Origin: Candidatus Wallbacteria bacterium
Lineage (GTDB): Bacteria > Muiribacteriota > UBA6191 > JACPRK01
NCBI GenBank assembly: GCA_016213845.1
Contig: JACQZN010000049.1
Location: 1 to 64,000, forward strand
Direction: 5' to 3'
DNA length: 64,000 nt
Shown here: in pieces, positions 19,134 through 64,000 of the stretch
Position numbering within the stretch: the stretch's first letter is position 1
Layout: the number at the start of each line of letters is the position of its first letter
Notes under the pieces: model-generated
What the model was told of the DNA's origin: nothing
The model's database searches: none
What the model saw: the letters and a program-made list of their open reading frames with translations, nothing else
Program-made: the position numbers and the translations under genes

Positions 19134-19194
19134 GTCGGCCATCCTCCTACCGGGGCGCCTCGCCCGCCGGTCGCGGCCTCGCCCGTGCGGCCCC

Positions 19195-31100: not shown

Positions 31101-34100
31101 GGGGCAACAGTTCACGGCCTCCCTGACACTGCGCAACAGCGGTTCGGCAACGGCCGTCTTGACGGCCATCTCGCTGGATTTCGGCTCGACGGGCCTGACG
31201 GCTCCGGCCGCCAGCACGCCCGTGAGCTTGGCCGGCAACGGCAGCCTTACCACCCTCGTGTTCCAGCTGTCGGCAGCAAGCGCGGCGGCGGGCGCGGCCT
31301 CGTTCTCCTCACGCGTGAAGGGATTCGATCAGAACAGCCTGACGGCGTTGACCGTGGCGGCGGGGAGCGCGGCAGTGCTGGTGCAGACACGGGCCGCTCT
31401 GCGAGTCTCGGGGCTCGCCTTTTCCCGGCCTGCCTTCACGATGACGCAGGCCCAGTCGGCCAGCATCACGCTGACGCTCACCAACGATGGGCAGGCCGGC
31501 GCCGACGTCTCCTCGGCCCAGCTCCTCTTCGACCGGGCCGTCCTCTCGGCGGCCGGCCAGTCAGTGAACCAGCGAATCGCGGGCGGCGCCAGCAGGAGCT
31601 TCGTCTTCGGCGTGACGGCCTCCCCGACGCTGACGGCGGTGGTCAAGGTCGACGGAGACGCCACGGCGCTCGACGCCAACAGCCGGGCGAGCGTGGCGGT
31701 GACGCGAGGCAACACGCTGACGATCACCGTGCAGCGCCCCGCGGGCCTGACCCTGGACAGGATCGACGTTCGGCGGACGGTGACGCTGGGTCAAGTGACG
31801 GCTGCGACGATGGTTTTCCGCAACTCGGGCGAGGCCGCGCTGACCTTGACGGCAGCCGACGTGGTCCGGAACCTGCCGCTGGTGAACCTCTCGAGCTTCT
31901 CGGGCTCGGTGGCGATCGCGGGCGGCCGGACGGCGCCTGCAGTCGTGAACATGACAGCCGTGGCGCTGGGCGCGGTGACGCTGACCTCGGCCACGGCACA
32001 GGCGACAGAGGACAACACGGGCAAGCGGCTGACGATCGTGAACGGGATGACGCTGCCGCCGACGATCACGGTGCAGGAGCCGCCCGGAATCCGCGTCGAT
32101 CTGCCCCAGGTTCCGGCGTTCGTGTCGATCGGTCAGACGTTCAGCGTGACGGCGATGATCGCCAACACGGGAGAGGCGCCGCTCGTGCTGACGGCGGCGA
32201 CCGCGGCCTTCCGGCCTCCGCCGACGCTTCCGGCGACGGTCGTGACGAACCTGGCGTCGCTCACGATCCCCGGATTCACGACGGCTCCGGTGGTCTTCTC
32301 GGTGACGGTGCCGGTGACCGAGACCGCGGGCGTGCGGGACCTGGACCTGGACGCCACGGGCCAGGACGCAAACACGGGCCTGGCCTTGCCGACCGCGACC
32401 CGCAGCCCGGCGGCACAGGTGACGCTGCAGACGACGCCGCAGCTCTCGATCCTGCCGCTGGTCAAGCAGGGGACGGCCAGCCGCGGACAGACCTTCACGG
32501 TGACGATCCCGGTGCGGAACCTGGGCCAGGCGACGGCCCGGGTGACGGCCGCAACGCTGGTTTGGAGCAAGACGAAGGTGACTTCGGCACTGGCCGCGGG
32601 TCAGACGCTGGACGTCCCCGGCGGCACCACCGGCACCGTGGCCATGACCGTTACCGTCGCCTCGGATGCTCCATTGGGTCCAGTGACGTCAGTGGCTACA
32701 GTGGATGCGATTGACGTCAACAGCCGGCTCGCCCTGCCGCGCCTGAGCTTCGCCAGCTCCGTCCCCACCACCATCGAGGCGCCCGCCGCGCTCTCCATCG
32801 TCAGCTACAAGGGACCGAGCCGCGTCAGCCAGGGACAGAGCTTCACCGCCACTGTCGGCGTCAAGAACCTGGGCGGCGCCCTCGCGCGGATTCGCGACGC
32901 CACGCTGGTCTGGTCGCGCCCCGGTATCACGGCTACGCTGACCAGCCCGGCCACGCCCACCTTCGTCACCGGGGGAAGCTCCGTCACCACGACCGTCCTG
33001 CAGTTCACCTGCTTCGTCGACGCCGCCGCTCAGACGGGCCTCACCACTGGCGACGTCACCGTCAGCGCCAACGACGCCAACGGCGAGCTGCTCGACATCA
33101 CCGCCTTCGCCCCGCGCATCGCCAGCACCACCGTGCAGACGAAGGCGACGCCGCTCTTGGTCTCGCTCGGCACTCCGCCCACCATCTCCCAGGGCCAGAC
33201 CGCCCGAGTCTCGCTCACCGTCACCAACACCGGCGAGGCGCGCGTCCTGCTCGATCCACCCACGCTCTCCGTCCTCGGCAACACCATCGTCTTCAGCGCG
33301 CGGGCCTCCAACCCGACCAGCATCGCCGGGCTCGCCTCGGCGGCGCTCTCATTCGACCTGACGGTCTCGGCCTCGGCGACCCCGGGCACCACCGACATCT
33401 CCGTGCAGCTCTCCGCCCACGACGAGAACAACCCGGGCCCCACCATCGTCGCGTCCAATCCGAGCATCCGTCAGATCGTCATCCAGCGCCCCCCTCAGCT
33501 GACCCTGGGCGACCTCATCAGCGTGCCCGCCCACGTCTCCCGCGGCCAGCTCGTGAAGCTCTCTCTTCCCGTGACCAACCCGCCGGACGCTGCCACGGCG
33601 CGCTTCAACGGGCCCAGCCTGGCCGGCTCGGCCGCCGGCGTCTCCACCGTGACCACGCCCCCTTCGCCCAGCGTGATTACCAGCGGCCAGACCACCAACC
33701 TCGTCTTCCTGACCTCGATCTCGTCTACGGCCACCACCGGCACCATCTTCCTCCAGGGCATCGTCCCGTTCATCGACGCCAACACCGGCCTGCCCGCCGG
33801 CACCGTCACGCGCAACCCCGTTGGCCAGCTCGACGTCCAGCTCGGCGCCAAGCTCTCACTCGGCCAGTCAGGCGCGCGCACGTCCGTCACCCAGGGCCAG
33901 AGCTTCAGCGCGACCATCGCGGCACTCAACCAGTCGGGCGGCGCCGGCGCAGCAGCCACCGGCACAGCCGCGGTTCTCGTCAAGAGCGACTCCACTTTCT
34001 CCGCCACGCTGACGCAGCCGCCGGGAACCATCAACGGTGGCGACACTGCCAACTCCACCCTCAACATCGCCACCACCAACCCAGCGACGACTCTGGGCAC

Positions 34101-36519
34101 CAAGAGCGTCTTCATCACCTACACCGCCCGCGACGCCAACAGCGGGCTCATCACACCCGACACCACCGCGTCCCTCACGGTCAGCTTCATCGTCCAGCGC
34201 CGTCCCACGCTCACTGCCCAGTCGCCGACCATCCCCGCCACGATCTCCCGAGGCGAGCTGAAGGTTCCGGTGTCCATCTCGTTCACCAATGGCGCCACCG
34301 ACAGCGCAACTGCGCTCGTGACAGCCGTCAGCTTCAAGTTCCTTGCGGGCGGCTCCACCGACGAGAGCGCGCGCTACACGCCGACTTTCGTGACCGCGCT
34401 GCCGCTGGCCATAGGCGGCGGGGCCACGGGGACGGTCAAGGCCCTCTTCGACGTCGGGGCAAACGCTTCCCTGGGCGCCCTATCGGTCACGGCAGACATC
34501 TCGGCCCAGGATGCCAACGACTCCGCGCCGTTGACGGTCCCCTCCCCCGCCGGCACCGGCAGCTCCGTGGTCGCCGCCAAGCCCGTGCTGAAGCTTGCGG
34601 GTCCCACCAACGCGCTCCCGGCCATCTTCCCGGCCCAGAGCACGCTCTCCACGGGGCAGACGGTCCAGTTCCGCATGGAGGTGCGCAACTTCGGCGCCGC
34701 CAACGCCAACATCACCGGCGGCAGCCTCTCCTTCTTCTCGGGCTTCGTCAACAAGACCTCCGAGTACACCGTCGCCCTGGTCTCGGGCGCCGGCACACTC
34801 GGCGTCGGCAGCACCGGAAACACCAGCGCAGCTACGCTCGTCTTCAACGTCACACCGTCATCGGGGGCGGCCGGCTTCGGGACGATCTCGGTCGGGGGAA
34901 CGGTCGTCGCCACGGCTTCCTCGGGCGGCGCCGATGTCACCACGTCGATCACCCCGCCCGTCACGGGGGGCACCTTCGTCCTGCAGAAGGCCGTCAGCCT
35001 GACGGCCCCGGACATCTTCTTCGACCCCATCCTGCCGACCGGCGTCGACCGGGCCAGCACCACGACTCCGGGCGACATCGCCTTCAGCCTGGTTTCGGTC
35101 CGTGTGAGAGTCAATAACTCCAACGGACCCAGCGGGGCCTCGATGCTGATCTCGGCAGCGACCCTCGAGCTCAAGACCGGCGCCGTCAGCGTCGACAGCG
35201 AGTACAGCGTCACCGGGCCCGCAGGCTTCCCGCTCACGCTCGCCGGCAACGCGACGGCCTTCCTCACCTTCACCGTCGCTGCGAAGCCTACGGCACAGAA
35301 GGCCGTCATCGTCAGCGTCGTCCCGAAGATCACGGCCGCCGACGCAAACATCGGCTCCGCCTCGCAGGTCTCCGGGACTGCCGGCTCGTGGATCGTCCGA
35401 GACAAGGCCAAGGCCCTCGTCGGCCAGCCCGACTTCCAGACGGCCACCTCGGTTCCGCCTGCCGCAGGTCGCATCAATGGCGCGCTCGCAGCCATCTCCG
35501 ATGGCGTCCGGCTCTTCGTGGCCGACACGCAGAACAGCCGGGTCCTCATCTTCCCGAGCCTCACCGCCACTACTCCCGTGACCTGCTTGGGCCAGGCCAG
35601 CTTCACCGCCGGCGCTGTGAACGGGGGCGGAGCGGCCGGTAGTTCCACCCTGAATGCACCTAGCGGCCTGGCGATCTCGGGCACGAAGCTGGTCGTCATC
35701 GACGGCGGCAACAACCGAGGCCTGGTCTTCAACAACTACACGACGCTGCCTCAGTTCAGCGCCCCCGCCGACGCGGTCTTCGGCCAGGCCGACTTCACCA
35801 GCAACATCGCCAACCGCACCGGCGCAGTGAGCGCCGACGGTCTCTCCAACCCCAGGTCGGCCGTCGTTATCGCCGGCAAGCTGCTCGTCAGCGACAGCGG
35901 CAACAGCCGCGTGCTCCTCTACGACCAGATTCCCACCAATTCCAGCAACACGCCTACCGTCGTCATCGGCCAGACCGGCATGACCGGCGGCAGCGTCAAC
36001 ATGGGCGGAGCAAACCCGAGCGCGGCCTCACTTGCGTTCCCGGCGGGCCTGGGCACCGACGGGCAGCGGCTCTTCGTCGCCGACCAGGGCAACGATCGGG
36101 TCCTGGTCTTCTCGCCGGTGCCGTCCGCCAACGGCGCCTCCGCCGGAAGCGTCCTCGGTCACGTCGACTTCGTCTCCGGCACCGCTTCCAAGCCGACCAC
36201 CGACGGCGGCCTCAGCCGCCCGACTGGCGTCACCGCGGCCCTGGACAAGATCTTCGTGGCCGATCAGGGCAACAACCGAGTGGTCGTCTTCCTCAACCCC
36301 TCGCCCCCGACGCTGCCGGCCATCGGCGCCACGGCGCTCGATCTCTTCGGCCAGTCCCGCTTCACGGAAAGCGGCGCCAACAACTCCGTCAGCGGCACGC
36401 GTGACGCCTTCAGCCTCTCCAGCCCTGCCGACGTCGCCACCACCTCCATCACGGACGCCGCACGCCTCTTCGTGGTCGACTCCGCCAACCACCGCATCCT
36501 GGTCGTGCCGGTGCCCTGA
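28120..36519 (+). CDS. Giant lipoprotein with about 18 Ig-like repeats and C-terminal NHL propeller
   Basis: The GTG start gives 2799 residues. The signal peptide ends in a lipobox (STTGC, Cys23) followed by a Gly/Ser linker, so it is a lipoprotein. Residues about 45-280 hold a regulatory-like beta domain (VKGPFLRGSPVKIFRV) and a helical segment. Then come about 18 repeats of around 110 residues. Each opens like LSIGSLALPASVSVGQTFT, then a V-NTGE motif, SLTF and DxNSG. They resemble CARDB- or Ig-type surface repeats but form a separate set from the minus-strand giants. Residues about 2430-2799 contain repeated VADTQNSRVLIFP, VSDSGNSRVLLYD, VADQGNDRVLVFS and VADQGNNRVVVFL motifs: an NHL-type six-bladed propeller, likely a ligand- or protein-binding tip. 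Surface attachment is inferred. Confidence 0.8.
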   Translation: MNKLSGPIALLLAWLAFASTTGCGGGGGGSSSTAGGGSGPGTAGTTSGAAVKGPFLRGSPVKIFRVTGGQQGDLIGTGTVGDGGTFSIRLADGSYSGPLLFSVSGSYSSESGGTDTISETNPIFGFLPSYSAGTTEANISVTPLTHLALQLALGRGPLGSASMQSASDEIGTRFGLTNIGRTVPADPTAAGSQDSPALRYGLVLAGLTQQAQIKSVSTEALIASLGSDAADGSLDGQAASGALAGYSSSFFTSDLAAGVDSFVQSTNNRSNVTETPTELKQSLTRALVSIGNLALPSLAARGQIVTATVLLANTGGNPARIDAVTLTPSQSGVSVTASASNPGTLGAGQSAVFTFSISIDSNAPPGTPTFQLRVDATDTVTNQPAGAARSNAGSLAIQEPSSVSIGNLQTPGTVVRGGSFSVLMPVTNSGGAAATLESAALTFSVAGFGAQADSANPVRVEAGDSVALRFIVTVGSGVAPGNVTIDARVTSRDTASNGTGEAVLAGAGVVRVLSPAALAIGTILGSGPLVAGQTIVVSLPVTNSGESVATIQSVTLGFGTTDLTVTPLSGNPGSISPGITSLFRFRVTAGANTAGRSFTASATAQGTDSSSGASVSAPPRGDAGTLVIVRPATLSIGSLALPASVSVGQTFTATLSVTNTGESTADIGLVSVTFDNPGVNTVAGVSNPGSILPGATQTFRVSVLVSSNASPGPVVGSVAITAVDRLSGASASTSQANLATVNVLTRAALAPLSVAIAPLVSKGQTTVATLTVQNAGQARATITAASLTFSDRNITAAARADNPASVAGNATAQLRFDVTIGSAAASGIATIGASISGKDANSSAQTGGSVADAGSTLVQTPAALSVSTVSGPARLSQGQTFTATATIANLGEAAVRLSAASLTFSNPNVTASVASPSPLPTLGQGQSVLLRFSGTVGAAAAPGPITAVFEASGRDVNSSATVRASQTQALSATVDTPAAVSVVSLVPSTGTVSQGQQFTASLTLRNSGSATAVLTAISLDFGSTGLTAPAASTPVSLAGNGSLTTLVFQLSAASAAAGAASFSSRVKGFDQNSLTALTVAAGSAAVLVQTRAALRVSGLAFSRPAFTMTQAQSASITLTLTNDGQAGADVSSAQLLFDRAVLSAAGQSVNQRIAGGASRSFVFGVTASPTLTAVVKVDGDATALDANSRASVAVTRGNTLTITVQRPAGLTLDRIDVRRTVTLGQVTAATMVFRNSGEAALTLTAADVVRNLPLVNLSSFSGSVAIAGGRTAPAVVNMTAVALGAVTLTSATAQATEDNTGKRLTIVNGMTLPPTITVQEPPGIRVDLPQVPAFVSIGQTFSVTAMIANTGEAPLVLTAATAAFRPPPTLPATVVTNLASLTIPGFTTAPVVFSVTVPVTETAGVRDLDLDATGQDANTGLALPTATRSPAAQVTLQTTPQLSILPLVKQGTASRGQTFTVTIPVRNLGQATARVTAATLVWSKTKVTSALAAGQTLDVPGGTTGTVAMTVTVASDAPLGPVTSVATVDAIDVNSRLALPRLSFASSVPTTIEAPAALSIVSYKGPSRVSQGQSFTATVGVKNLGGALARIRDATLVWSRPGITATLTSPATPTFVTGGSSVTTTVLQFTCFVDAAAQTGLTTGDVTVSANDANGELLDITAFAPRIASTTVQTKATPLLVSLGTPPTISQGQTARVSLTVTNTGEARVLLDPPTLSVLGNTIVFSARASNPTSIAGLASAALSFDLTVSASATPGTTDISVQLSAHDENNPGPTIVASNPSIRQIVIQRPPQLTLGDLISVPAHVSRGQLVKLSLPVTNPPDAATARFNGPSLAGSAAGVSTVTTPPSPSVITSGQTTNLVFLTSISSTATTGTIFLQGIVPFIDANTGLPAGTVTRNPVGQLDVQLGAKLSLGQSGARTSVTQGQSFSATIAALNQSGGAGAAATGTAAVLVKSDSTFSATLTQPPGTINGGDTANSTLNIATTNPATTLGTKSVFITYTARDANSGLITPDTTASLTVSFIVQRRPTLTAQSPTIPATISRGELKVPVSISFTNGATDSATALVTAVSFKFLAGGSTDESARYTPTFVTALPLAIGGGATGTVKALFDVGANASLGALSVTADISAQDANDSAPLTVPSPAGTGSSVVAAKPVLKLAGPTNALPAIFPAQSTLSTGQTVQFRMEVRNFGAANANITGGSLSFFSGFVNKTSEYTVALVSGAGTLGVGSTGNTSAATLVFNVTPSSGAAGFGTISVGGTVVATASSGGADVTTSITPPVTGGTFVLQKAVSLTAPDIFFDPILPTGVDRASTTTPGDIAFSLVSVRVRVNNSNGPSGASMLISAATLELKTGAVSVDSEYSVTGPAGFPLTLAGNATAFLTFTVAAKPTAQKAVIVSVVPKITAADANIGSASQVSGTAGSWIVRDKAKALVGQPDFQTATSVPPAAGRINGALAAISDGVRLFVADTQNSRVLIFPSLTATTPVTCLGQASFTAGAVNGGGAAGSSTLNAPSGLAISGTKLVVIDGGNNRGLVFNNYTTLPQFSAPADAVFGQADFTSNIANRTGAVSADGLSNPRSAVVIAGKLLVSDSGNSRVLLYDQIPTNSSNTPTVVIGQTGMTGGSVNMGGANPSAASLAFPAGLGTDGQRLFVADQGNDRVLVFSPVPSANGASAGSVLGHVDFVSGTASKPTTDGGLSRPTGVTAALDKIFVADQGNNRVVVFLNPSPPTLPAIGATALDLFGQSRFTESGANNSVSGTRDAFSLSSPADVATTSITDAARLFVVDSANHRILVVPVP

Positions 36520-48410: not shown

Positions 48411-48953
48411 CTACGGCTCCGGTAGCGGATTCCAGGTCTTATCGGTCCTCAGGTTCTTGAGGAAGAGCACCTTGGCGAAATCGGTCGGGGCATTGTCCGC
48501 CTCGATCTCGAAGCGCACGCTGACATGGATGTTCGAGGCGCTGCGCAAGGTGCCAGGCTTCACGTCGAAGGCCTTCAGTTTGTCGAGTCCGAACTTGCGG
48601 TGCTCTTTGTCGGCCGCCGGACCCGAGGTCTCCAGGCGCCGATGGATGGTCCCGCCTTCGCGTTTGTAGGTGACCCGGACAGGGACGGAGCGATAGGGGT
48701 TTCGCTCGACCTTGAGGATGTCGAGCTTCAGCTCCCCGGCGGCGGCGTTCCAGACCGGGGACTTCCGAAGTGCCTGCACATCGAGCTTGAGGGATTGAAA
48801 GAGAAGGTTGGCCTCCCCGATGTACTCGAGCTTGCCTTCGCCTCGAACCATTCCGCGGCGGCTGCTCACCAGGAGCGTATAGAGCACGGCCATCAGCATC
48901 ACGGCCACGCCGAACGCCAGCAGCGCCTCCACCAGCGAGAACCCGCGCCTCAC
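48411..48953 (-). CDS. Prepilin-type protein (GspJ/PilW-like minor pseudopilin)
   Basis: 180 residues. The start is GTG or the adjacent codons: GTG 48953-48951 overlaps the stop of the upstream pseudopilin gene (GTGA). The N-terminus reads MRRGFSLVEALLAFGVAVML, a type IV prepilin signal with cleavage after Gly and Glu at +5. The rest is a beta-rich domain with LLFQSLKLDVQALRKS. It fits a GspJ/PilW-like minor pseudopilin. It is the last gene of a four-gene operon with a LysM protein, a GspK-like protein and another pseudopilin. Confidence 0.75.
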   Translation of the reverse strand: MRRGFSLVEALLAFGVAVMLMAVLYTLLVSSRRGMVRGEGKLEYIGEANLLFQSLKLDVQALRKSPVWNAAAGELKLDILKVERNPYRSVPVRVTYKREGGTIHRRLETSGPAADKEHRKFGLDKLKAFDVKPGTLRSASNIHVSVRFEIEADNAPTDFAKVLFLKNLRTDKTWNPLPEP

Positions 48954-49405
48954 CGATCCACCTTCGTCTTGAGCGCCACCAGCTCGATGCGGCGCTTCTC
49001 CTCGTCGCCCCCGCCTTGCCAGACGACCTTGATGCGCACCGTCTTCACGCGGAACTTTCCCTTCCCGTCAATCGTCGCAGAGACATCCTCCTTGGGATCG
49101 ACCTCGACCGTACGCGTGTAGAGCGGCGAGCCGACCGGCATGTTCGTCGCAATCTCGCCCGGCAGAGCGGCGTCGACCTCCTCGTACCCGAGCGCGCCGA
49201 CGGCCTCGACGACGTCGTCGGCCAGGAGGAAGGCCTTCGTCTGGTGCAGCGTCTGGGCCGTCCCCTGGTGGCCGGCGATCAGCAGCCCGAGAAGCGGCAT
49301 GAGCGCGATCGACAGGAAGATGACGGCGACCACGATCTCGGTCAGGCTGACGCCCGCCCTGCCGGGTCGCCGCCCGCCCATCACATCCGCTCGAGCACGC
49401 CTCAT
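48950..49405 (-). CDS. Prepilin-type protein (GspI/PilV-like minor pseudopilin)
   Basis: I chose ATG 49405-49403, which overlaps the upstream stop (ATGA). 151 residues. A signal of about 20 residues precedes GVSLTEIVVAVIFLSIALMP, giving cleavage after Gly and Glu at +5. Then LLADDVVEAVGALGYEEVDA resembles the GspI/PilV pattern of Ala-Glu-x-x-x-Gly after the helix. Short C-terminal beta domain (FRVKTVRIKVVWQGGG). Translational coupling on both sides shows it works with the two flanking prepilin-like proteins. Confidence 0.75.
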   Translation of the reverse strand: MRRARADVMGGRRPGRAGVSLTEIVVAVIFLSIALMPLLGLLIAGHQGTAQTLHQTKAFLLADDVVEAVGALGYEEVDAALPGEIATNMPVGSPLYTRTVEVDPKEDVSATIDGKGKFRVKTVRIKVVWQGGGDEEKRRIELVALKTKVDR

Positions 49406-51636
49406 TGCACCATCAGGAAGTCGTCGGAGTGGTCGACACAGAGCGACCATCCCGGATCGATCTTCTTGGACTCCTTGAGCCACGGCCCCACTTTGAAGTT
49501 CGGGTTGTACTGCAAGAAGGACACGGACTTGGCCTGGAAGCTCTTTTGAAAATCGATTCCCTGGGCGATGATCGCCCCGAAGAGCTGCAGTCCCTTCGGC
49601 GCCTCGATCAACCCCTTCGGCGCCACCAGGATCGCCTGCACCGCGTGGCGGTCCGCGATCCGGATGTTTCCCTTCCGCGCCACCAGCATCAGCGGCGGCT
49701 TGTCGGGGTCTCCCGGCCCGTCCCCTCCCACCAACGGCGAGGCCACGTCGAACTCATCGGCGACGAGCACCCCACCGCGCTTGATGTGGTGGATTGCCCC
49801 GAGCGGGAAGGGGCCGTCCTTCTCCCAGACCAGCACGGTCCCCAGATCCAGCGTGTCGCCTCCGACCAGGTACCCCTCGTCGGCCAGGAAGCGCGTTGGG
49901 TTGTCGGCCTCTCCCGAGCGGCGGCAGACTTTCAACATGTCGGGGAACGAGGTCGCCAGGCTGTTCACCACGCTCTCGAGCTCAGCCTCGCCGATGCCGT
50001 CCTGCTCGGCGTCGGGCAAGAGTCCCGCGACCAGCTTCGTCCTGGGATCGGAGTCGTCCTTCGGAGTGAAAAACTCCTTTGGAACCTTCGACACCCCGAC
50101 CCCCTTCTGCACGGGGAAGGCCTCGTGGTTCTCGCTGGAGAGAAACAGCATGCCCTGGTTGTAGGGTCGCGTCGCCACGCGAGAGGCCATCTGCGAGTAG
50201 ACTTGCGGGCTCACCGAGGGATCGGCTGCCAGCGTCCGCGTGGCGGGATCGACGAACAAGAACTTGCCCGGATTGTAGATGTCGGCCGCGCCAGCGACGT
50301 CGTCGAAGGTCCCCGCCGACACCGGCACCGCCGCCCTGAACTGCGCCATCGGGATCGGATCGGGCGGCATCGGCAGCAGCGTGAAGAAGGCCGCGGCCGT
50401 GGTGTCGTCCACCGCGGTCTTCAAGCTCGCCGCCGTCAGCCGCAGCAGCCCCGCCGAGACTTTTCCCAGCACCAGCGTCGGGCTGATCCGGTTCCTGGGC
50501 GCGCCCATCAAGTGCAGGACGCTGGAGAGCAGCTTCTGCGTGACGTCGGGTGGCCCGAACGCCTTGCGCGAGCTGTCGAGCTCCGGCCCGTCGAGCCGCG
50601 AGATCCCCATGTCCCAGAACCGGACCGACCAGGGCGAGCCCGCCGGCAACTTGGCATTGACGTCGTCGTCGATGTAGCTGCGCTGAGCAGTCTTGGGGCC
50701 GGGACCGGCCGCCTCGTGAAAGAACAGGAAGTCCTCGCCCGCCTGGGCCGCGTTGTCGGTTTCGTCGTGGCTGAACGCGTGATTCAAGATCAGGTCCCCG
50801 CGCGCTCCGAGATAGACCCAGCCCTGGCTGGCCAGCCGCTCGCCCGTCAGGCCCTTGAAGGCGCTGGCGTCGTCGACCTCGCCGTTGTTCAGCACCAGCG
50901 GGCCCTTGCCGTCCGCCACGAGCCCGTGGAAATCGGTGTTCGCGGAGTTGATCAGCTCGGGGCTGCAGGCCGGGTTGGTCGGGTCCGAAAGAAACAGCGT
51001 GAAGTGGTTGAAGAGCGGCAAGAGCGGCGAAACGACCCGATACTCCATGAACCCGAGTAGCCTTCGCGAAACACCCTCCAGCAGAGCTCCGACCTTGAAG
51101 ACGCTCTCCACCTCGATGAAGAGGCGCCCGTACTTCTGGCGCACGTCCTGCAATCCCTTGGTCCAGCCATGCGGATCGAAGGCGAGCGAATCGTCCGGCA
51201 GCGCATAGAATCGCGCCTTGAGTGTGCCGACGTTCGCGACGCCGCCCTCGAAGGATTGCGCCACCCGATCGACCAGCGGCAGGTAGTCGGTCTTGAAGTC
51301 GATTTCCCCCAGCGGGATCGGCTTTCCAGAGCTCCACGCCGGGTCGTCCATCGACTTCATCAGCGCCTTCGAGATGGCAGATTCCGGGTCGAGCAACCCG
51401 GCCTGCACCTCGGCCTTCGAAAGTTCCATCGCTGCCCGGGCCAGCGTGTAGGCGAACTCTCCGAAGAGCTGGCGGTACTGCAGCAGCCGTCGCCCACGCA
51501 TGAAGGAGAAGTAGCTGAAGACGCCAATCGTCAGGACCAGAAGGACGAAGAAGACGACGATGGTGGCGATACCGCGCCTCGTGGGCCGGAATCTTCTCTC
51601 GCCACCGGAAGCGTGTTGGCTATCGCGTCGTGACAC
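49402..51636 (-). CDS. GspK/PilX-like large tip pseudopilin candidate
   Basis: I chose GTG 51636-51634. It overlaps the end of the LysM gene by 17 bases, and GGAGG sits about 12 bases upstream. 744 residues. After a basic leader comes TRRGIATIVVFFVLLVLTIG, which looks like a prepilin-type signal without Glu at +5. GspK and PilX-type proteins at the pilus tip also lack it. The following helix LFGEFAYTLARAAMELSKAEV is typical of the PilX/GspK N-terminus. The remaining 680 residues are not a known family to me. They contain several beta-rich parts and late motifs such as VAPKGLIEAPKGLQLFGAI. This is much longer than GspK (about 300). A tip role is inferred from order and signal. Confidence 0.6.
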   Translation of the reverse strand: MSRRDSQHASGGERRFRPTRRGIATIVVFFVLLVLTIGVFSYFSFMRGRRLLQYRQLFGEFAYTLARAAMELSKAEVQAGLLDPESAISKALMKSMDDPAWSSGKPIPLGEIDFKTDYLPLVDRVAQSFEGGVANVGTLKARFYALPDDSLAFDPHGWTKGLQDVRQKYGRLFIEVESVFKVGALLEGVSRRLLGFMEYRVVSPLLPLFNHFTLFLSDPTNPACSPELINSANTDFHGLVADGKGPLVLNNGEVDDASAFKGLTGERLASQGWVYLGARGDLILNHAFSHDETDNAAQAGEDFLFFHEAAGPGPKTAQRSYIDDDVNAKLPAGSPWSVRFWDMGISRLDGPELDSSRKAFGPPDVTQKLLSSVLHLMGAPRNRISPTLVLGKVSAGLLRLTAASLKTAVDDTTAAAFFTLLPMPPDPIPMAQFRAAVPVSAGTFDDVAGAADIYNPGKFLFVDPATRTLAADPSVSPQVYSQMASRVATRPYNQGMLFLSSENHEAFPVQKGVGVSKVPKEFFTPKDDSDPRTKLVAGLLPDAEQDGIGEAELESVVNSLATSFPDMLKVCRRSGEADNPTRFLADEGYLVGGDTLDLGTVLVWEKDGPFPLGAIHHIKRGGVLVADEFDVASPLVGGDGPGDPDKPPLMLVARKGNIRIADRHAVQAILVAPKGLIEAPKGLQLFGAIIAQGIDFQKSFQAKSVSFLQYNPNFKVGPWLKESKKIDPGWSLCVDHSDDFLMVQ

Positions 51637-56375: not shown

Positions 56376-56963
56376 TCAGTTGTCGGTGACGACGATGACG
56401 CGCTGGTACTTCAGGAAGTCCCACTTCGCCGCCGCGTCGACTACCGCAGCCGCGGAGGCATCGTCCAGGATGCCGTCTGAGTTGAAATCGGAGCCGATGG
56501 CTGCCAGTTTGACCACCAGCGGGTTCTCGCCGGCCTGGGGGGCCTCGGTGGCCGACTTCATGTCGCCGGCGTAGGTGATGACGCCATTCTCCTGGGCGTA
56601 CTCGAAGTTGCTCTCGAAGTTGCCGTAGACGAGCTGCCCGCTCTGGGAGTAGAACCGCGGCCCCATGCCGCGGGACAGTTGGGTGCCGCGAGCGTCGATG
56701 ATGAGCCCGGTGTGGGCGCCCTCGGGCGGGATGCCGATCGAGCCACCCGGCCGCGCGGCGGTGGCGATCTTCATCTTCGAACCCTTGGACTTGCGGGCCG
56801 CCTTCTTCTTCATGGCGTGCGCGCTGGACTTCTTCGACTTGGCCTTGTCCGGGCCAAGCCCCTCGAAGGCCGGCGTCGCGGCCCACGCGACGGGCTGCGT
56901 CACGAGCGCCAAGGCCAGCAACTTCGAAATTGTCGTTCGATTCAGTTTCAGCAAGCCAAACAC
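56376..56963 (-). CDS. Secreted protein with FlgT/LPP20-like TGLIIDARG domain
   Basis: 195 residues. GTG 56963 follows AGGAGG at a 7-base spacer. Signal peptide (LLALALVTQPVAWAA), then a Lys-rich segment. From about residue 85 there is HTGLIIDARGTQLSRGMGPR, FYSQSGQLVYG, FEYAQENGVITYAGD and NPLVVKLAAIG. The TGLIVDARG..MxPxIY..G..VYG pattern is found in LPP20/FlgT-like envelope proteins, and some of these belong to flagella. It ends the minus-strand flagellar region, so a periplasmic flagellar accessory is plausible. The final VIVVTDN suggests a beta strand closing the domain. Confidence 0.6.
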   Translation of the reverse strand: MFGLLKLNRTTISKLLALALVTQPVAWAATPAFEGLGPDKAKSKKSSAHAMKKKAARKSKGSKMKIATAARPGGSIGIPPEGAHTGLIIDARGTQLSRGMGPRFYSQSGQLVYGNFESNFEYAQENGVITYAGDMKSATEAPQAGENPLVVKLAAIGSDFNSDGILDDASAAAVVDAAAKWDFLKYQRVIVVTDN

Positions 56964-57033: not shown

Positions 57034-57780
57034 TCACTTCTCCATCTCCTGGATCAGCTGCTCGAGGTCGACCGTCACCGAGCCCGCCGCGGGGGCCGGA
57101 CGCCGCCGCGCCGGCGAGCGCAACTTCACGGGCGGATGTGCCAGCTCCGCGGTGGCCCGCGCACGGGCCGCCACCGGCGCGGACGGCTCCTCGAAGGCCG
57201 CCAGCGTTGGGTCGTCCACCTCATCCGGCTGCCCGGCTACTGGCGCGCGGTCGTGCTGAGCCATCCTTTCGCGGACAGTGGCCAGGAGCTGCTCGCGGCG
57301 ACGGGGGTCGGCCTGCGACTCCACGGTGGTCACCAGCTGGGTGCGCGCCTGTTCGAGCTCCTCGCGAAGAGACTTGTAGAGCACTTCCGAGCTCGAGAGC
57401 AGCCCCGCGAGGCGTTCGAAGTAGCGGCGAATCTGCTCGCCATCTTCGGGAAATCGCTCCTGGAGACTTGCCCGGAGCTCGTCCACCTTGTCGACCTTGC
57501 TCCGCAGCGACTGCATCGTGCGAGCGGAGCCACCCCCGATGACCTGCAGGTCGGCCGCGACGCGGGACGCCGAGGGCGGGCCCTTGTCGAGCCGTGCGCC
57601 GAGCTGAACCTGGTCGATGCGGCTCTGGTAGTCGACGAGCTGCTGGTGGCTTGCCCGGAAGTCTTTCTCGATATCGCCGAGGATGTCGAGCACTTCGCTC
57701 GCCACGGCGACGCCTGTCGTCAGGCAGCAGCAGGCCGCGGCGATGCCGAGTCTGCCGATGAACGAACGCGCTGGGGGCAT
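57034..57780 (-). CDS. Secreted coiled-coil protein near flagellar genes
   Basis: 248 residues; ATG 57780 has AAGGAG six bases upstream. Signal peptide (LGIAAACCCLTTGVAVAS). Residues about 30-160 are a long helical region (EVLDILGDIEKDFRASHQQ, VDKVDELRASLQERFPEDG, LREELEQARTQLVTTVESQ), likely a coiled coil. The C-terminal half is Ala/Pro/Arg-rich. I do not recognise the family. It lies between flhF and the TGLIIDARG protein, on the same strand. The 274-base gap to flhF holds no gene I can support. Confidence 0.5.
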   Translation of the reverse strand: MPPARSFIGRLGIAAACCCLTTGVAVASEVLDILGDIEKDFRASHQQLVDYQSRIDQVQLGARLDKGPPSASRVAADLQVIGGGSARTMQSLRSKVDKVDELRASLQERFPEDGEQIRRYFERLAGLLSSSEVLYKSLREELEQARTQLVTTVESQADPRRREQLLATVRERMAQHDRAPVAGQPDEVDDPTLAAFEEPSAPVAARARATAELAHPPVKLRSPARRRPAPAAGSVTVDLEQLIQEMEK

Positions 57781-58054: not shown

Positions 58055-59488
58055 TCACGCCGCGGGGGAGACGCCGTCGGAGGCTTCGACCTGCGGACGG
58101 GCCGGCAGCAGCTCCGGCGTCAGGCCGCGCTTGCTGAACGCCATCGAGGCCAGCGTCACGGCGTCGGCCTCGAGAATGTCGTCGGGGACGCATTGCCCGG
58201 TCGTCATGTAGCTGGCGCCCTCGCGGTGCCCCGCGAGCAGGGAGACGACGGAGCCGAAACAGGAGGTTTCGTCGGTCTTGGTGACCAGCACCTTCTGGAA
58301 GCCAAGCTCCTTGAACCCGGCGGTGATTCCCCGCAGGTCGGAGAGCTTCGTCAAGGCGCTGACCAGCAGGTGCGTCTCGATCGGCATGCCGAACTCGAGG
58401 AACTTCTTCAGATCGAGCAGGTCCTCGCGATTGCGGGGGCTGCGGCCCACCGTGTCGATCAGGATGACGTCCTTGTTGCGGAAGCCGTGGACCAGCTCGA
58501 TCATCTCCTCGGGCTTGAAGACGACCTTGACCGGGACCTCGACGATCTCGGCGTACTTCTTGAGCTGCTCCGGAGCCGCGATCCGGTAGGTGTCGATGGT
58601 GATGAAGGCGACGTCGAGCCTGTGGTTGAACATCAGGCCGCCGGCAAGCTTGGCCAGGGTCGTGGTCTTGCCGACGCCGGTTGGGCCGACCAGGGCGACG
58701 AGCTTGCCCTTCTGACCGCCGACGAGCCCGAGTCCACCGGCCACGGAGAGCCGGGAGGCCAGGTACTCGACGGCGCGCTCGCGGACCCGGGAAGGCTGGC
58801 GCAGCTCCCGCTCGGAGAGGGCCTCCACGAGGTACTGGCGCACCTCGCAGATGAGGTCGTCGGCCAGCTCATTGGCGCGCAGAGTCTGCATCGCCAGCTC
58901 GACGTACTGCAGGTCCCGGGCGGGGGCCGGGTCCCGGATGAGGATCATCGGTCCGACCGAGCCGCTGTCCGTGGCGAGGGCGTCGGAGGGAGAGCCGGAA
59001 CAATCCGTTCCGGTCGGTCCCTCGGGGCTCGACGAGGGCGGTGCAGAAACCGGTCCGGCGGGCGGTTCCGCCGGTGACGCCTTGAGCTGACTCAAGACAT
59101 CCTTCAAGTCTTTCAACTCCGAGAGGACGGAGAGCTGCTGCTTGATCTGGAGGATCTCGTCCTTCATCAGGACCAGCTCCTGCGACGGGGGGGGCGGGGC
59201 GAGCTGCGCCGGCGGGTCCGACCGCAACTGCGGAGAGGGGGCAATCTCGGCGACGCCGGAGCTGAGCAGCTGCCGGGCGGCCTCGACGGTCGGATGGGAG
59301 CGCGCCTCGCCGCTGGACCGATCGGCGCGCACGCCGACCACCTCGATCCATTCCCGGCGGAAGAAGCCGAAGATGCCGCCTCGCTTGTGGGCGGCGGCGT
59401 GGACGATCTCGACCTCGGGCCCGAGCTCCTTGCGGAGCTTCTCGTAGGCTTCCTGTCGCGTGGGCGCGGTGACTCTCCGGATCAGCAT
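58055..59488 (-). CDS. flhF: Flagellar-biosynthesis SRP-type GTPase FlhF
   Basis: 477 residues. An N-terminal basic B domain (RRVTAPTRQEAYEKLRKELG and GGIFGFFRREWIEVVGV) is followed by a variable Ser/Pro/Gly linker. The SRP-type NG GTPase from about 230 has GPTGVGKTTTLAKLA, DTYRIAAPEQLKKYAEI, ILIDTVGRSPRN and VTKTDETSCFG. FlhF is membrane-associated and sets the place and number of flagella together with FlhG. Two FlhG-type ATPases lie directly upstream. This is the usual flhA-flhF-flhG neighbourhood but with the order flhA, flhG-like, flhG-like, flhF in the direction of transcription. Confidence 0.9.
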   Translation of the reverse strand: MLIRRVTAPTRQEAYEKLRKELGPEVEIVHAAAHKRGGIFGFFRREWIEVVGVRADRSSGEARSHPTVEAARQLLSSGVAEIAPSPQLRSDPPAQLAPPPPSQELVLMKDEILQIKQQLSVLSELKDLKDVLSQLKASPAEPPAGPVSAPPSSSPEGPTGTDCSGSPSDALATDSGSVGPMILIRDPAPARDLQYVELAMQTLRANELADDLICEVRQYLVEALSERELRQPSRVRERAVEYLASRLSVAGGLGLVGGQKGKLVALVGPTGVGKTTTLAKLAGGLMFNHRLDVAFITIDTYRIAAPEQLKKYAEIVEVPVKVVFKPEEMIELVHGFRNKDVILIDTVGRSPRNREDLLDLKKFLEFGMPIETHLLVSALTKLSDLRGITAGFKELGFQKVLVTKTDETSCFGSVVSLLAGHREGASYMTTGQCVPDDILEADAVTLASMAFSKRGLTPELLPARPQVEASDGVSPAA

Positions 59489-59523: not shown

Positions 59524-60483
59524 TCAGGACCTGCGGAAGAGGCCGGCGAGGCGCTCGAAAAATCCTGGCTGGTTCGCGGGGGCGGGCGGGGCCGGCGAGT
59601 CGAACAGGCCGGCGACTATGTTGGTGATGCAGACCGAAGCGTACGAGTTCGGATAGAGCATCACCACGGGCTTCTGGCGCCGCACGCTGAGGCTGACGTT
59701 CTCGTCCTCGAGGACGAAGCCGGCGTAGTCGACCCTGAGCTGCAGATGCTCGCGCGCCACCTTGCTGAAGCGCCGCGCAACCAGCAGCCCCTCCTCGGGG
59801 TCCTTGACCTTGTTGACGACGATCGACGTCCTCGGCACGCTCGACCCCTCCATCGCCAGCGTCTTGAGGACGCCATAGGCGTCGGCCATCGCGGTCGGCT
59901 CGGGGGTGGTGACGAGCAGGACTTCGTCGGCCGCGCGCACGAAGGAGAGGACGTTGCGGGAGAGCCCCGCCCCGGTGTCGATGAGCAGCACGTCGGAGTA
60001 GGACTCCAGGCGTCGCAGGTTTTGCAGCAGCTCGCCCATCGCCCGGTCGTCGAGGTCGGCCAGCTCGGCCATACCGCTGCCTCCGGCGATGAACTTCACG
60101 CCCGGAGGTCCGCTCACCAGGATTCCCGGCAAGTCGCGCTTGCCCTTGAGGACGTGGTACAGCGTGTACTGGGGACGCACACCGAAGAGCACGTCCAGGT
60201 TGGCCATGCCGAGGTCGGCGTCGAAAGCCAGAACGGACTTGCCAAGCCGCGTCATCGCGACGGCCAGGTTTGCGACCATGCTGCTCTTGCCGACGCCGCC
60301 CTTGCCGCTCGTCACGGTGATGACGCGGGCGCGCTTTGCCTGGACAGGCTCGACCGCCTGTGGCGCTGGCGGGGCAGGCCGCACCGAGGGCAGGGCGCGG
60401 AGCCCAGGAGCGGGATCGCGCCGACGGGGCGCCATCATCGCGTGCGAGCTGGCCTGGGTTCGGCTGGGCTGGGTCATGGTCAT
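59524..60483 (-). CDS. FlhG/MinD-type ATPase, paralogue lacking the DQA motif
   Basis: 319 residues. A Pro/Ala-rich leader (about 1-50) is followed by the MinD fold with the deviant Walker A ([20 protein letters not shown]), switch I and II (FDADLGMANLDVLFG, LLIDTGAGLSRNVL) and TPEPTAMADAYGVLK. A C-terminal amphipathic helix (FFERLAGLFRR) could bind membrane, as in MinD and FlhG. The FlhF-activating DQAxxLR motif seen in its neighbour is absent, and its N-terminus has only SRTQASSHAMM. Gap to flhF is 35 bases. It may act in a dimer or partnership with the upstream paralogue. Confidence 0.8.
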   Translation of the reverse strand: MTMTQPSRTQASSHAMMAPRRRDPAPGLRALPSVRPAPPAPQAVEPVQAKRARVITVTSGKGGVGKSSMVANLAVAMTRLGKSVLAFDADLGMANLDVLFGVRPQYTLYHVLKGKRDLPGILVSGPPGVKFIAGGSGMAELADLDDRAMGELLQNLRRLESYSDVLLIDTGAGLSRNVLSFVRAADEVLLVTTPEPTAMADAYGVLKTLAMEGSSVPRTSIVVNKVKDPEEGLLVARRFSKVAREHLQLRVDYAGFVLEDENVSLSVRRQKPVVMLYPNSYASVCITNIVAGLFDSPAPPAPANQPGFFERLAGLFRRS

Positions 60484-60627
60484 CGTTGTCCGTCCCTTGC
60501 TGGGCGGGTCACGGGTGCCCGTGGAGTGTTCGTGTCGGAATTGGTTCCGTCCGGGGGTGGGATTCCAGGTAGGCCGAGGGAGGCGACTGCCGGGGCTGCG
60601 AGCCGCGTGAGCTGCGCTGGTGGGGGG

Positions 60628-61572
60628 TCAGTGAAACCAGCCGGCGAGCCGTTCCAGGAAGCCTCTGAACCCTCCGTGGCCGGTCTGCTCGCCCTCCAGC
60701 AGCTTGGCGCCGATCTCCCGTATGCCAGCTGCCGCGCTACTGTCCGGGTAGGCCAGAATCAGCGCCTTCTGCTCGCGCACGGCGCTGCCAACGGCGGAGT
60801 CCTCGCGCACCGAACCGATCGCCTTCAGGTTCGCGGCCAGAAATCGCTTCACCACAAGCCCGAGCTTGTCGTGAACCGCCTTGGCTTCGAAATCGCGGCG
60901 CACCCGGTTGACCACCAGTCGCACGTCGACACCCGGGTTGGAAGCGTAGAGCGCCTTGATGATGCCGTAGGCGTCCGCCATCGCGGGCGGCTCGGGCACG
61001 GTCACCACCAGCACCGTGTCGGCAGCCAGCGCGAAGCCGAGCACGTTCTTGCTGATGCCGGCGGCCGTATCGATCAGCACGAAATCGGCGTCCTGCGCCA
61101 CCCGATGAAAGGCCGTCAGGAGCCTCTCCCGCGCAGCGTCGCCGAGGTCCGCAAGCTCCGCGACGCCGTTGCCCCCGGGGATGATGCGGATGCCCTCCGG
61201 CCCTTCCACCATCACTTCTTGCAGCGTCCGCGCCCCGGACAGCACGTCCATCACGCTGAACACCGCGTGCAGCCCGAGCGCCACCGTCACGTTCGCCAGA
61301 CCCAGGTCCGCGTCCATGATCAGCACCCGCTTGCCCCTCTTCGCCAGGGAGAGCGCCAGGTTGATCGTGAGGTTGGTCTTGCCGACGCCGCCCTTGCCGC
61401 TCGTCATCGCCAGGACCCTGGGGCCTCGAGCCGGTGCCGCAAAGCCCGGAACCGAGGCCGATACGGGCTGGCGCGCCAGCTCTCGGAGTTTGACAGCTTG
61501 GTCTCTCATCGGCCCTGCAGTTCCCTCGATGCCCCGAAAACCGTTGGGCTCCGGACGAATCGCACTCATCAT
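60628..61572 (-). CDS. flhG: FlhG-type MinD ATPase with DQA motif
   Basis: 314 residues from ATG 61572; an inner ATG at 61509 would give [12 protein letters not shown] at the very N-terminus, which is where FlhG proteins keep the DQAxxLR helix that stimulates FlhF GTP hydrolysis. MinD motifs: [67 protein letters not shown] and [13 protein letters not shown]. The C-terminal amphipathic helix (FLERLAGWF) is kept. It lies 24 bases downstream of flhA and 145 bases before the second paralogue. Controls flagellar number. This copy is the better FlhG ortholog candidate. Confidence 0.85.
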
Positions 61573-61596: not shown

Positions 61597-63552
61597 CTAG
61601 ATTTGTTCGGTCGCGCCCACGATCGCCAGCGCCGGCCGGCCTTCCGCGGGCCCGCCGATCCGCCTCCGCAGCTCCGGCCTCACCTCGCGGGAGATCTCCC
61701 GGCGCGACAGCACCGCCAGCTCCGGGAGCCAGTGTCCGAACAGGTTCCTCACGTGCCGGCGCAGCGTCGGCTTCGTCAAGAGCACCGGGCGCAGCCCGTC
61801 CTTCTCGAAGGCCTCGCAGCCGTCCGTCAACATCCCCAGGAGCGACTGGAGCCTTTGAGGTGAGATGGCCAGGAAGTCCTCCTGGGCGACATAGGCACCC
61901 TCGAGCTCCTTCTCCAGATCATCGGCCAGCACCATCACCGGCAAGCTCCCCGCCGCCGTCCGGAGGTGGCCGGAGACCTGCCGGGCCAGCGCGGCGCGCA
62001 CGCATTCCGTCAGGAGCGCAGGCTGCTTGGCCAGCTCCTTGGCGCTCGCGACGGCCTCCAGGATGCCGGCGGCGTCGCGGATGCCGACTCCCTCGGCGAG
62101 CAGCCCGCGCAAGACGGCCAGGAGCGCGCCCCGATCCACACCGTCCACCGCCTCGAAGAGCGCCGGCTTCGCCCGTCTCACTTGACTCAACAGGTCTTCC
62201 AACTCCTGACGACCCATGAGCTCGTCCGCGTAGGCTCGCACCTTCTTGGCGACGAAGGCGGCGATCCGGCCCTCGACCGGCTCTCCGGCCTCCCGGCTCC
62301 CCGGGAGACGCCCCTCCCCGACCTGCTGCCCACGCAGGTCGAGCGTGTAGCTCAGTCGCGTGAGCCCCTCGTCGACGGTGACGCTGATAGGCGGCACGGC
62401 CAGCCCCAGCTCGTCCCTGATCTGGCGCCGCACCTGCGACAGCTCGGCGTCCAGCCGGCCGCCCTTCTCCTGGAGAGCCTCGAAAACGCCTTGCGATAGC
62501 CGGACCTCTAGCGGCCGGAACCCGAGCTCCCTGGGGGCCGCGGCGGCCGTCACCTCGAGCTGGTCGGGCTCGACGGAGAGTCCCTTCCAGGCGGCCCAGC
62601 CGAAGATCCCCGCCAGCGCGACCAGCGGCAGCCCGGCCACGCCGGCCGAAAGGCCGCAAACGGCGAGCAGACTGCCGACCACGCCCGCAGCCCCGGCCAT
62701 CGGGCGGGTGCTCGAGAAAACCTGGGCGACTGTTTCGCCGGCGACGCTCTGGCCGCTGGCGCTCTTGGTGATGAGCAGTCCTGTGGCGAAGCTGATCAAG
62801 AGCGACGGCACCAGCGAGGCGAGCCCGTCGCCGACGGAAAGCAATGCGAACGTTGAGGCGACGCGGGCCCAGTCGCCGCTGTCATTCGACCAGCCGAAGA
62901 CCAGCCCGGCGCCCAGGTTCACACCGAAGATGGCGATGCTGGCGATGGTCTCGTTCTTTACCCAGCGCGAGGCCCCGTCCATGTGGCCGAAGAAGTCCGA
63001 TTCGCGGTGGACCTGGTCGACCCGTTCCTCGGCCTCGGCGGCGGTGATCTGGTGGCTGTCGAGCTGGGCCTGGACCGCCATGAGCTTGTGGGGGAGACCG
63101 TCGAGCCGGAACCTGGCGGCAACCTCCGCCACGCGCTCGGAGCCCTTGGAGATGACCTGATACTGGATGCAGACGAGGATGAAGAAGAGCACCAGTCCGA
63201 CGGCCAGACTGCCGCCGACGACGAAGCCGCCGAAGGCGCGGATCAGGATTCCCTCGAACTCCGCCCCTTGCGTCAGGATGAGGCGGGTAGAGGCGACGTT
63301 CAGGCTCAGGCGGAGAAAGGTGAGCACCAGCAAGAGCGTGGGGAAGCACGACAGGTCCAGCGTGCGGCGCACGGAGCTGACCATCAGCAGGCACATCACT
63401 GCCATCGCCAGGTTCAGCACCAGGGCCACGTCCAGGAGTCTGGCCGGAATCGGGACGACCAGCACCAGGATGATGCCGACCAGACCCAAAGGTACGAGTG
63501 ACTCCGCTTGCCGCTGAAGCGCGGCGGCGTCCACGCCACATCTGTTGCTCAT
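61597..63552 (-). CDS. flhA: Divergent FlhA, flagellar type III export gate protein
   Basis: 651 residues, a little shorter than typical (about 690). GGGGAGG precedes ATG 63552. Eight membrane helices in the first 300 residues, LLVLTFLRLSLNVASTRLIL and ISKGSERVAEVAARF show it is FlhA/SctV-type. The FHIPEP core is altered: canonical MPGKQMAIDADL becomes LPHKLMAVQAQL (residues 153-164), and MDGASKFVxGDA becomes MDGASRWVKNET (191-202). Thus two conserved Asp are Gln and GD is NE. The C-terminal cytoplasmic domain (about 320-651) is present and ends with LPELAVLSRREIS. FlhF/FlhG neighbours favour FlhA over a virulence-type SctV. Confidence 0.85.
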   Translation of the reverse strand: MSNRCGVDAAALQRQAESLVPLGLVGIILVLVVPIPARLLDVALVLNLAMAVMCLLMVSSVRRTLDLSCFPTLLLVLTFLRLSLNVASTRLILTQGAEFEGILIRAFGGFVVGGSLAVGLVLFFILVCIQYQVISKGSERVAEVAARFRLDGLPHKLMAVQAQLDSHQITAAEAEERVDQVHRESDFFGHMDGASRWVKNETIASIAIFGVNLGAGLVFGWSNDSGDWARVASTFALLSVGDGLASLVPSLLISFATGLLITKSASGQSVAGETVAQVFSSTRPMAGAAGVVGSLLAVCGLSAGVAGLPLVALAGIFGWAAWKGLSVEPDQLEVTAAAAPRELGFRPLEVRLSQGVFEALQEKGGRLDAELSQVRRQIRDELGLAVPPISVTVDEGLTRLSYTLDLRGQQVGEGRLPGSREAGEPVEGRIAAFVAKKVRAYADELMGRQELEDLLSQVRRAKPALFEAVDGVDRGALLAVLRGLLAEGVGIRDAAGILEAVASAKELAKQPALLTECVRAALARQVSGHLRTAAGSLPVMVLADDLEKELEGAYVAQEDFLAISPQRLQSLLGMLTDGCEAFEKDGLRPVLLTKPTLRRHVRNLFGHWLPELAVLSRREISREVRPELRRRIGGPAEGRPALAIVGATEQI

Positions 63553-63568: not shown

Positions 63569-64000
63569 TCAGGTTCGCGGGGCGCCGATGGCGCTCCCGG
63601 GTGTCGAGTTCACGATGGAGTTCGGAGTCCGGAGCTTTGCCCGCGCGCGCGGTCCGGGCTCCGCGGCGGTGCGCCGCTCGATGGCCTCGAGGATCTGTCC
63701 CCGCACGTGCGGGTCGCCCTCTGCCATCTTGAAGTCGTCCTTCACCTCGACGCGCGTCATCCGCTGCGAGGCAGCGAAGCTGGCGCGCGCCAGGAGGTGT
63801 TCGGCCGTACCGAACGCCAGCCAGGTCACCGTCAGCCAGAGCGCGAGCCGCAGTGCGCCGGCCAGCACGCCAGCCAGCTCCTGGGCCGGCGTGATCGCGG
63901 GGAATGCCGCCCAGACAAGGGCGGCGACGGCCGCGAGCTTGGCCGCGATCCAGGCTGTGTTGGCAGCCAGGTTGGGCAGCGCCAGGCGGGTCCAGGGCAG
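63569..64000 (-). CDS. flhB: FlhB (N-terminus beyond window), ending before the autocleavage domain
   Basis: The open frame runs off the right edge. It contains two membrane helices (LAAVAALVWAAFPAI and LRLALWLTVTWLAFG) and then RMTRVEVKDDFKMAEGDPHVR, the highly conserved FlhB juxtamembrane segment (usual: MxxxEvKdE.K..EGdP). In FlhB a cytoplasmic domain with the NPTH self-cleavage site should follow. Here only about 30 more residues remain (KLRTPNSIVNSTPGSAIG...) before a TGA at 63571-63569. FlhA starts 16 bases later, leaving no room for the domain. It may be encoded elsewhere, or the switch function is lost. Confidence 0.8.
   Translation of the reverse strand: MPWTRLALPNLAANTAWIAAKLAAVAALVWAAFPAITPAQELAGVLAGALRLALWLTVTWLAFGTAEHLLARASFAASQRMTRVEVKDDFKMAEGDPHVRGQILEAIERRTAAEPGPRARAKLRTPNSIVNSTPGSAIGAPRT

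Follow-up and report, generated by a model that had tools for sequence, protein, structure and literature searches.

Autocleavage of FlhB and the docking of substrates on FlhA are considered key to type III export. The C-terminal domain of FlhB is the docking site of the early (rod/hook) substrates (PMC9307174), and the linker of FlhB, which passes through the basket of FlhA, has been proposed as a coupling element (PMC13308203). The dimple of FlhA has a part in recognising substrates; it binds chaperone-substrate complexes and, in the rod-hook state, the linker of FlhA (PMC10965912), and the GYXLI motif of FlhA is required for domain motion (PMC9431611). In Salmonella, removal of CC from FlhB abolishes the export of FlgE; FlgM can still reach the periplasm, under over-expression and in the absence of Flk (PMC13344023). 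The Salmonella FlhB-deltaCCD mutant, which has a gate without the cleaved domain as the system described here does, is locked in the late mode, and periplasmic export of FlgM-Bla is possible (PMC13344023). However, that mutant was engineered or selected, is truncated at residue 258 or 270 and has an intact FlhA, whereas the present system is natural, is cut somewhat earlier and has lost FlhA D2 as well.

Lysobacter enzymogenes OH11 is non-flagellated and, as in our case, keeps FlhA, FlhB, FliPQR and FliI; it has lost fliC, fliD, flgB, fliE, fliG, fliM and motAB (PMC7277350, PMC9927559). Its export genes are scattered and form no operon, and it belongs to a different phylum. Loss of the FlhB C-domain or of FlhA D2 is not reported for Lysobacter; a FliF with a FliG_C remnant is a further feature in which the present system differs from it. 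The needleless T3SS* of Myxococcus (Myxo NF-T3SS) is alike in having an export apparatus and a sorting platform with no secretin, needle, rod, hook or stators (PMC3459982, PMC12075869), and in that FliO is present and the system is under selection. Nevertheless, the Myxo NF-T3SS belongs to the injectisome line, whereas the present one is flagellar by its scores and has FlhF/FlhG and FliF-FliG_C. The fT3SS-related inner-membrane 'hat' and the nanotube export core have been linked to flagellar export genes and not to the flagellum itself; unlike the present system, they occur in species whose flagellar gene sets are normal (PMC9380563). The retention of export genes without a flagellum is already known. 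In the open-licence literature, truncated FlhB was met as laboratory mutants only and never as a natural form, and we found no report there of a gate that naturally has neither FlhB_C nor FlhA D2.

We analysed a stretch of 64,000 nucleotides (the window) from contig C80 (110 kb) of the draft genome G000 (6.23 Mb in 135 contigs, 84% complete). The window ends inside flhB, whose 3' part (63569..64000, minus strand) encodes neither NPTH nor the cleaved C-terminal domain. A sequence-only reading had claimed that this FlhB stops before the NPTH autocleavage domain, after some 30 low-complexity residues, and that flhA begins 16 bases later. When the sequence was extended past position 64000, the whole gene was found to occupy C80:63569-64381 on the minus strand and to encode 270 aa beginning with MIDLLPLLDDSRTEEPTQRRL, and the C-domain was still absent. 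The stop codon of this frame lies at 63569-63571, 43 residues after ...RMTRVEVKDDFKMAEGDPHVR. Among these 43 terminal residues (GQILEAIERRTAAEPGPRARAKLRTPNSIVNSTPGSAIGAPRT), the first ~10 form a family-like helix and about 32 are of low complexity. The ATG of flhA was located at 63552, 16 bases past the flhB stop. All three points of the claim were thereby borne out, the early stop also by the Pfam match and by the same end in a second genome, as follows.

PF01312 matched FlhB over positions 2-234 of 335 (E 4.8e-26; Pfam) and the NCBIfam flhB model over positions 1-241 of 348; the score was 58 bits, compared with the TIGR00328 cut-off of 349. FlhB retains the TEEPT start, the membrane part, the EGDP linker and the first CN helix. 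Its end falls inside FlhB_CN; the rest of CN is absent, as are NPTH and the entire CC. The N-terminal membrane domain with the linker (about positions 1-235) is present and was aligned to residues 6-265 of the solved Salmonella FlhB. In the full-length FlhB of flagellated phylum members, the PF01312 match reaches position 333-335, and NPTH is present in nearly all of those checked. The FlhB of G002, a genome of the same genus, has 259 aa and ends at the same place (PF01312 2-239), with 85 bases between the flhB stop and flhA. Over the stretch before flhA, C-domain coding was absent from the other two frames in both G000 and G002. A frameshift or an assembly error in flhB was rejected, since the other frames carry no C-domain and the second genome has the same end. 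Between the two genomes, FlhB is 46% identical overall. Identity is 69% over residues 206-238 (SQRMTRVEVKDDFKMAEGDPHVRGQILEAIERR; 63668..63766, minus strand), the conserved linker and start of CN directly before the truncation, and 29% over the aligned residues of the low-complexity tail which, with the stop, replaces the missing domain (63569..63667, minus strand). No other part of the protein is as well conserved as the linker just ahead of the stop. Since the constraint reaches the cut and ends there, the short form is old and the one under selection. On these sequence comparisons, chance or a sequencing error is ruled out as the origin of the FlhB truncation.

The same reading had suggested that the substrate switch is altered or supplied in trans. 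In a survey of 37 genomes of the phylum (G000 included), a full FlhB is encoded by nearly all of those outside the order, and in most it is accompanied by a stand-alone C-domain (FlhX). PF01312 gave a single match in the genome G000. A profile built from 10 FlhB CC domains and 7 FlhX found the C-domain in four relatives outside the order with E 7.5e-30 to 2.9e-41, one of these genomes being only 76% complete. In the four genomes of the order, G000 and its three nearest relatives (G001-G003), the profile had no match at E<=10, and thus no stand-alone FlhX/YlqH-type gene was found. Supply of the C-domain in trans was rejected on this ground; the other half of the suggestion holds insofar as the switch-bearing domain is missing. 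As a separate observation from the survey, G009 (L029; 97% complete, with a single PF01312 match) encodes a full-length FlhB in which NPTQ replaces NPTH, which may mean that in this other member of the phylum the cleavage site is non-canonical or has been lost.

FlhA, which the sequence-only reading had called changed, is encoded at 61597..63552 (minus strand) and has 651 aa; the transmembrane part is well kept and the cytoplasmic part is reduced. The residue numbers were obtained from the alignment to Salmonella. The alignment to the solved Salmonella FlhA breaks off at residue 435 and restarts at 494. The block missing from both G000 and G002 (Salmonella ~436-493), whose site is at about residues 416-430 of the present protein (62263..62307, minus strand), represents most of subdomain D2, the limits of which are taken in part from PMC10965912. 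The dimple residues L438, I440, P442, D456, F459, L461, V482 and V487 are absent with the block. In both genomes T490 of Salmonella aligns with Ala and the GYXLI motif is changed or lost; the D2 block and the motif are retained in the FlhA of flagellated phylum members. The alteration of FlhA was thus substantiated as a deletion of most of D2 together with the loss of the GYXLI motif. The charged residues R85, R94, R147, R154, D158, D199 and D249 are retained and D208 is Glu; these residues have been named as the proton path and inner ring (PMC13308203). Three further changes were considered and rejected. The change of MAIDADL to MAVQAQL is not a loss of the proton residue D208, since its positions correspond to D168/D170, and the position of D208 itself holds a conservative Glu; N137Q is normal across the phylum, and Q254 varies already in flagellated class-mates. 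FlhA is 72% identical between G000 and G002. In the FlhA tree, which held no injectisome sequences, the branch of these sequences is far longer than those of flagellated relatives, and an AlphaFold2 model from a three-sequence input reached a pLDDT of 49.7 and was set aside. Judged by the alignment, FlhA has retained its transmembrane part and is reduced in the part that handles substrates. Taken with FlhB, the encoded proteins have neither of the substrate docks known for the gate, the FlhB C-domain and FlhA D2.

The genes around this gate are transcribed from contig position 67522 to 58055 in the order fliN-like, fliO, fliP, fliQ, fliR, flhB, flhA, flhG, flhG and flhF, and the order from fliO to flhF is identical in G000 and G002. 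The product of the fliN-like gene is a C-ring-like protein with a FliN domain. flhA and flhF are separated by two tandem genes for FlhG/MinD-type ATPases (59524-61572), and this duplication is present in G002 too. Copy 1 (60628..61572, minus strand) has the N-terminal DQAVKLREL, which we take to resemble the FlhG DQAxxLR motif, and copy 2 (59524..60483, minus strand) has an altered version of it, DPAPGLRAL. flhF (58055..59488, minus strand) encodes an SRP-type GTPase (PF00448, E 5.5e-33). FlhF and the two FlhG suggest a defined position of the machine in the cell. A second locus, xerC-fliF-fliH-fliI-fliJ, lies on contig C78 of G000 and occurs also in G001 and G002. G003, which belongs to another family, has xerC-hslV-hslU-fliF-fliH-fliI-fliJ and also carries a fliN-like gene, fliO and a fliP interrupted by a contig end. 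flhA and flhB were found in G000 and G002 only, their absence from G001 and G003 being perhaps due to gaps. FliJ is named by position alone, with no Pfam match, and FliI has intact GSGVGKST and GERG motifs. Flagellar models scored better than injectisome models for all components compared (FliP, FliQ, FliR, FliO, FlhA, FliF, FliI and FlhB), with narrow margins for FliI and FlhB; for example, FliF scored 116 vs 61 bits and FlhA 471 vs 379 bits. The equivalog cut-off was exceeded by FliP only. In G000-G003, the MS-ring protein FliF is fused at its C-terminus to a FliG_C-like domain, the N and middle domains of FliG being absent (G000:C78, L057:10345-11937; also L058, L059 and L060). The E values of the FliG_C match were 9.1e-6 in G003, 2.8e-5 in G002, 0.005 in G000 and 0.014 in G001; those of G000 and G001 are weak alone, and the case is carried by the shared position and the two stronger matches. 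The FliF frame of G003 is broken and adjoins an N gap, and the fusion in that genome rests on draft sequence.

Several other genes lie nearby. Upstream of the fliN-like gene are a beta-barrel-like protein and a TPR protein (C80:69500-70642 and 67941-69440; L032:7500-8642, 5941-7440), the former with a signal-peptide-like start, an outer-membrane look by eye and no Pfam match. In G002 a tRNA-synthetase-like gene stands upstream of fliO at that place, and thus the beta-barrel-like and TPR genes are probably outside the system. flhF is followed on its own strand by two genes (57034-57780 and 56376-56963) that have signal-peptide-like starts and no convincing family match. Three adjacent genes at 48411-51636 have prepilin/pseudopilin-like N-termini, with a weak N_methyl match for the first only. 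The ORFs 2101-11418, 12291-19142 and 28120-36519 (3105, 2283 and 2799 aa) have secretion-signal-like starts. An Rfam search of the window gave no match.

Flagellin (PF00669), rod/hook proteins (PF00460, Flg_bb_rod), FliE (PF02049) and the stator protein MotB (PF13677) had no match in G000-G003, which are drafts (MAGs) with completeness of 84/72/74/78%, respectively. The same searches found all four families in the class-mates G004/G005. A separate fliG was not found in G000-G003, and FliG_C was seen only as the FliF tail. Upstream of fliF, the class-mates have flgB-flgC-fliE, and G000-G003 have xerC or hslU. Since no rod, hook, filament or stator genes were found to switch between, the switch appears to be less altered than no longer needed. 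As for selection, the dN/dS values between G000 and G001 (NG86) were about 0.05 for fliI, 0.09 for fliH, 0.12 for fliF and 0.28 for fliJ. Between G000 and G002, FliP is 81%, FliI 87% and FlhG 85% identical, FliJ/FliO are about 50% identical, and all frames are open. Among the gate genes, flhB evolves fastest (46% identity, dN/dS 0.3-0.5); synonymous sites between G000 and G002 are close to saturation. The dN/dS values and the open frames argue against a pseudogene cluster, and by these measures selection is still acting on the machine.

We consider it probable that the locus encodes a flagellum-derived, filament-less type III export apparatus, which was kept after loss of the flagellum and in which the substrate switch is obsolete. 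Once the axial genes were lost, the early dock and the switch would have become useless, and the autocleaving domain of FlhB could then be lost. With one substrate class or none, the switch and both docks would be dispensable. The FlhB membrane part and linker would have stayed as structural parts of the gate, the linker presumably being retained because it is part of the gate, and the late dock in FlhA may have disappeared along with the filament substrates and their chaperones. The machine would probably sit at a defined cell position and is predicted to move substrates into the periplasm without a switch, with substrates recruited by FliH-FliI-FliJ or another factor. Counting against this reading, the short Salmonella FlhB requires over-expression and the absence of Flk for any export, flhB is the least constrained of the gate genes, and flhA and flhB were seen in two of the four draft genomes. 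With both docks gone, secretion itself is a prediction. A bolder version, which we put forward tentatively and hold to be possible though doubtful, is that this order has, after flagellum loss, a natural gate without FlhB CC, the FlhA D2 dimple or autocleavage, which would constitutively export non-flagellar substrates to the periplasm by an undescribed recruitment route.

Alternatively, the base may serve as a platform or accessory for a type IV or Tad-like pilus or another envelope machine, and not for secretion. The twitching of Lysobacter needs flhA, flhB, fliI and fliR (PMC7277350), the Myxococcus T3SS* works with the Tad-like Kil pilus (PMC12075869), a weak prepilin motif (PF07963, E 0.0019) is present at window 48411-48953, and a non-export role fits the loss of both substrate docks. 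However, a direct pilus link was not found, the prepilin-like genes being separated from flhF by about 7 kb that include regulatory genes, and the complete ATPase complex with the gate suggests transport; we regard a platform role as unlikely. The strong divergence of FlhA, FliR and FlhB, the long FlhA branch and the low identities of FlhB and FliJ/FliO between G000 and G002 could also be those of a decaying relic, in which the flagellum was lost and the export genes are on the way out, with FlhB and FlhA further along. A relic is nevertheless rather improbable, given frames that stay open throughout (two to four genomes), dN/dS values far below 1 (0.05 for fliI), intact FliI motifs, an identical reduction (FlhB end and FlhA D2) fixed in G000 and G002, and a FliF-FliG_C fusion maintained across two families.

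Horizontal acquisition of a Myxococcales-type non-flagellar T3SS, which is also without rod, hook, stator and needle genes, would account for the resemblance in gene content, the Myxo systems having no FlgBCDEK, FliEG, FlgH, MotAB, secretin or needle (PMC3459982), and for FliO, which is reported in Myxococcota systems too (PMC12403147). We hold such an origin to be very unlikely, because the components compared prefer flagellar models (narrowly for FliI and FlhB), the FlhF/FlhG neighbourhood and the xerC(-hslVU)-fliF setting are as in flagellar operons, and FliF bears the FliG_C remnant. An artefact, be it a frameshift, a misassembly or an ordinary flagellum with missing contigs and perhaps its C-domain in trans, could be suspected in draft MAGs of 72-84% completeness. 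However, the truncation is shared by two MAGs, in which no frame ahead of flhA encodes a C-domain, and four genomes yielded no C-domain at E<=10. Moreover, the chance absence of one locus from all four genomes is ~0.3%, calculated from the completeness values as a simple product, which would apply to the four missing axial/stator families even if they formed one cluster. An artefact is hence hardly credible.

If the reading of a retained, filament-less export apparatus is true, this lineage, with gate, ATPase and placement factors but no docks, would show what a gate minimally needs, and it would represent another independent flagellum stripped of its filament and reused. The function of a gate without FlhB_C and FlhA D2 would then become a directly testable question.
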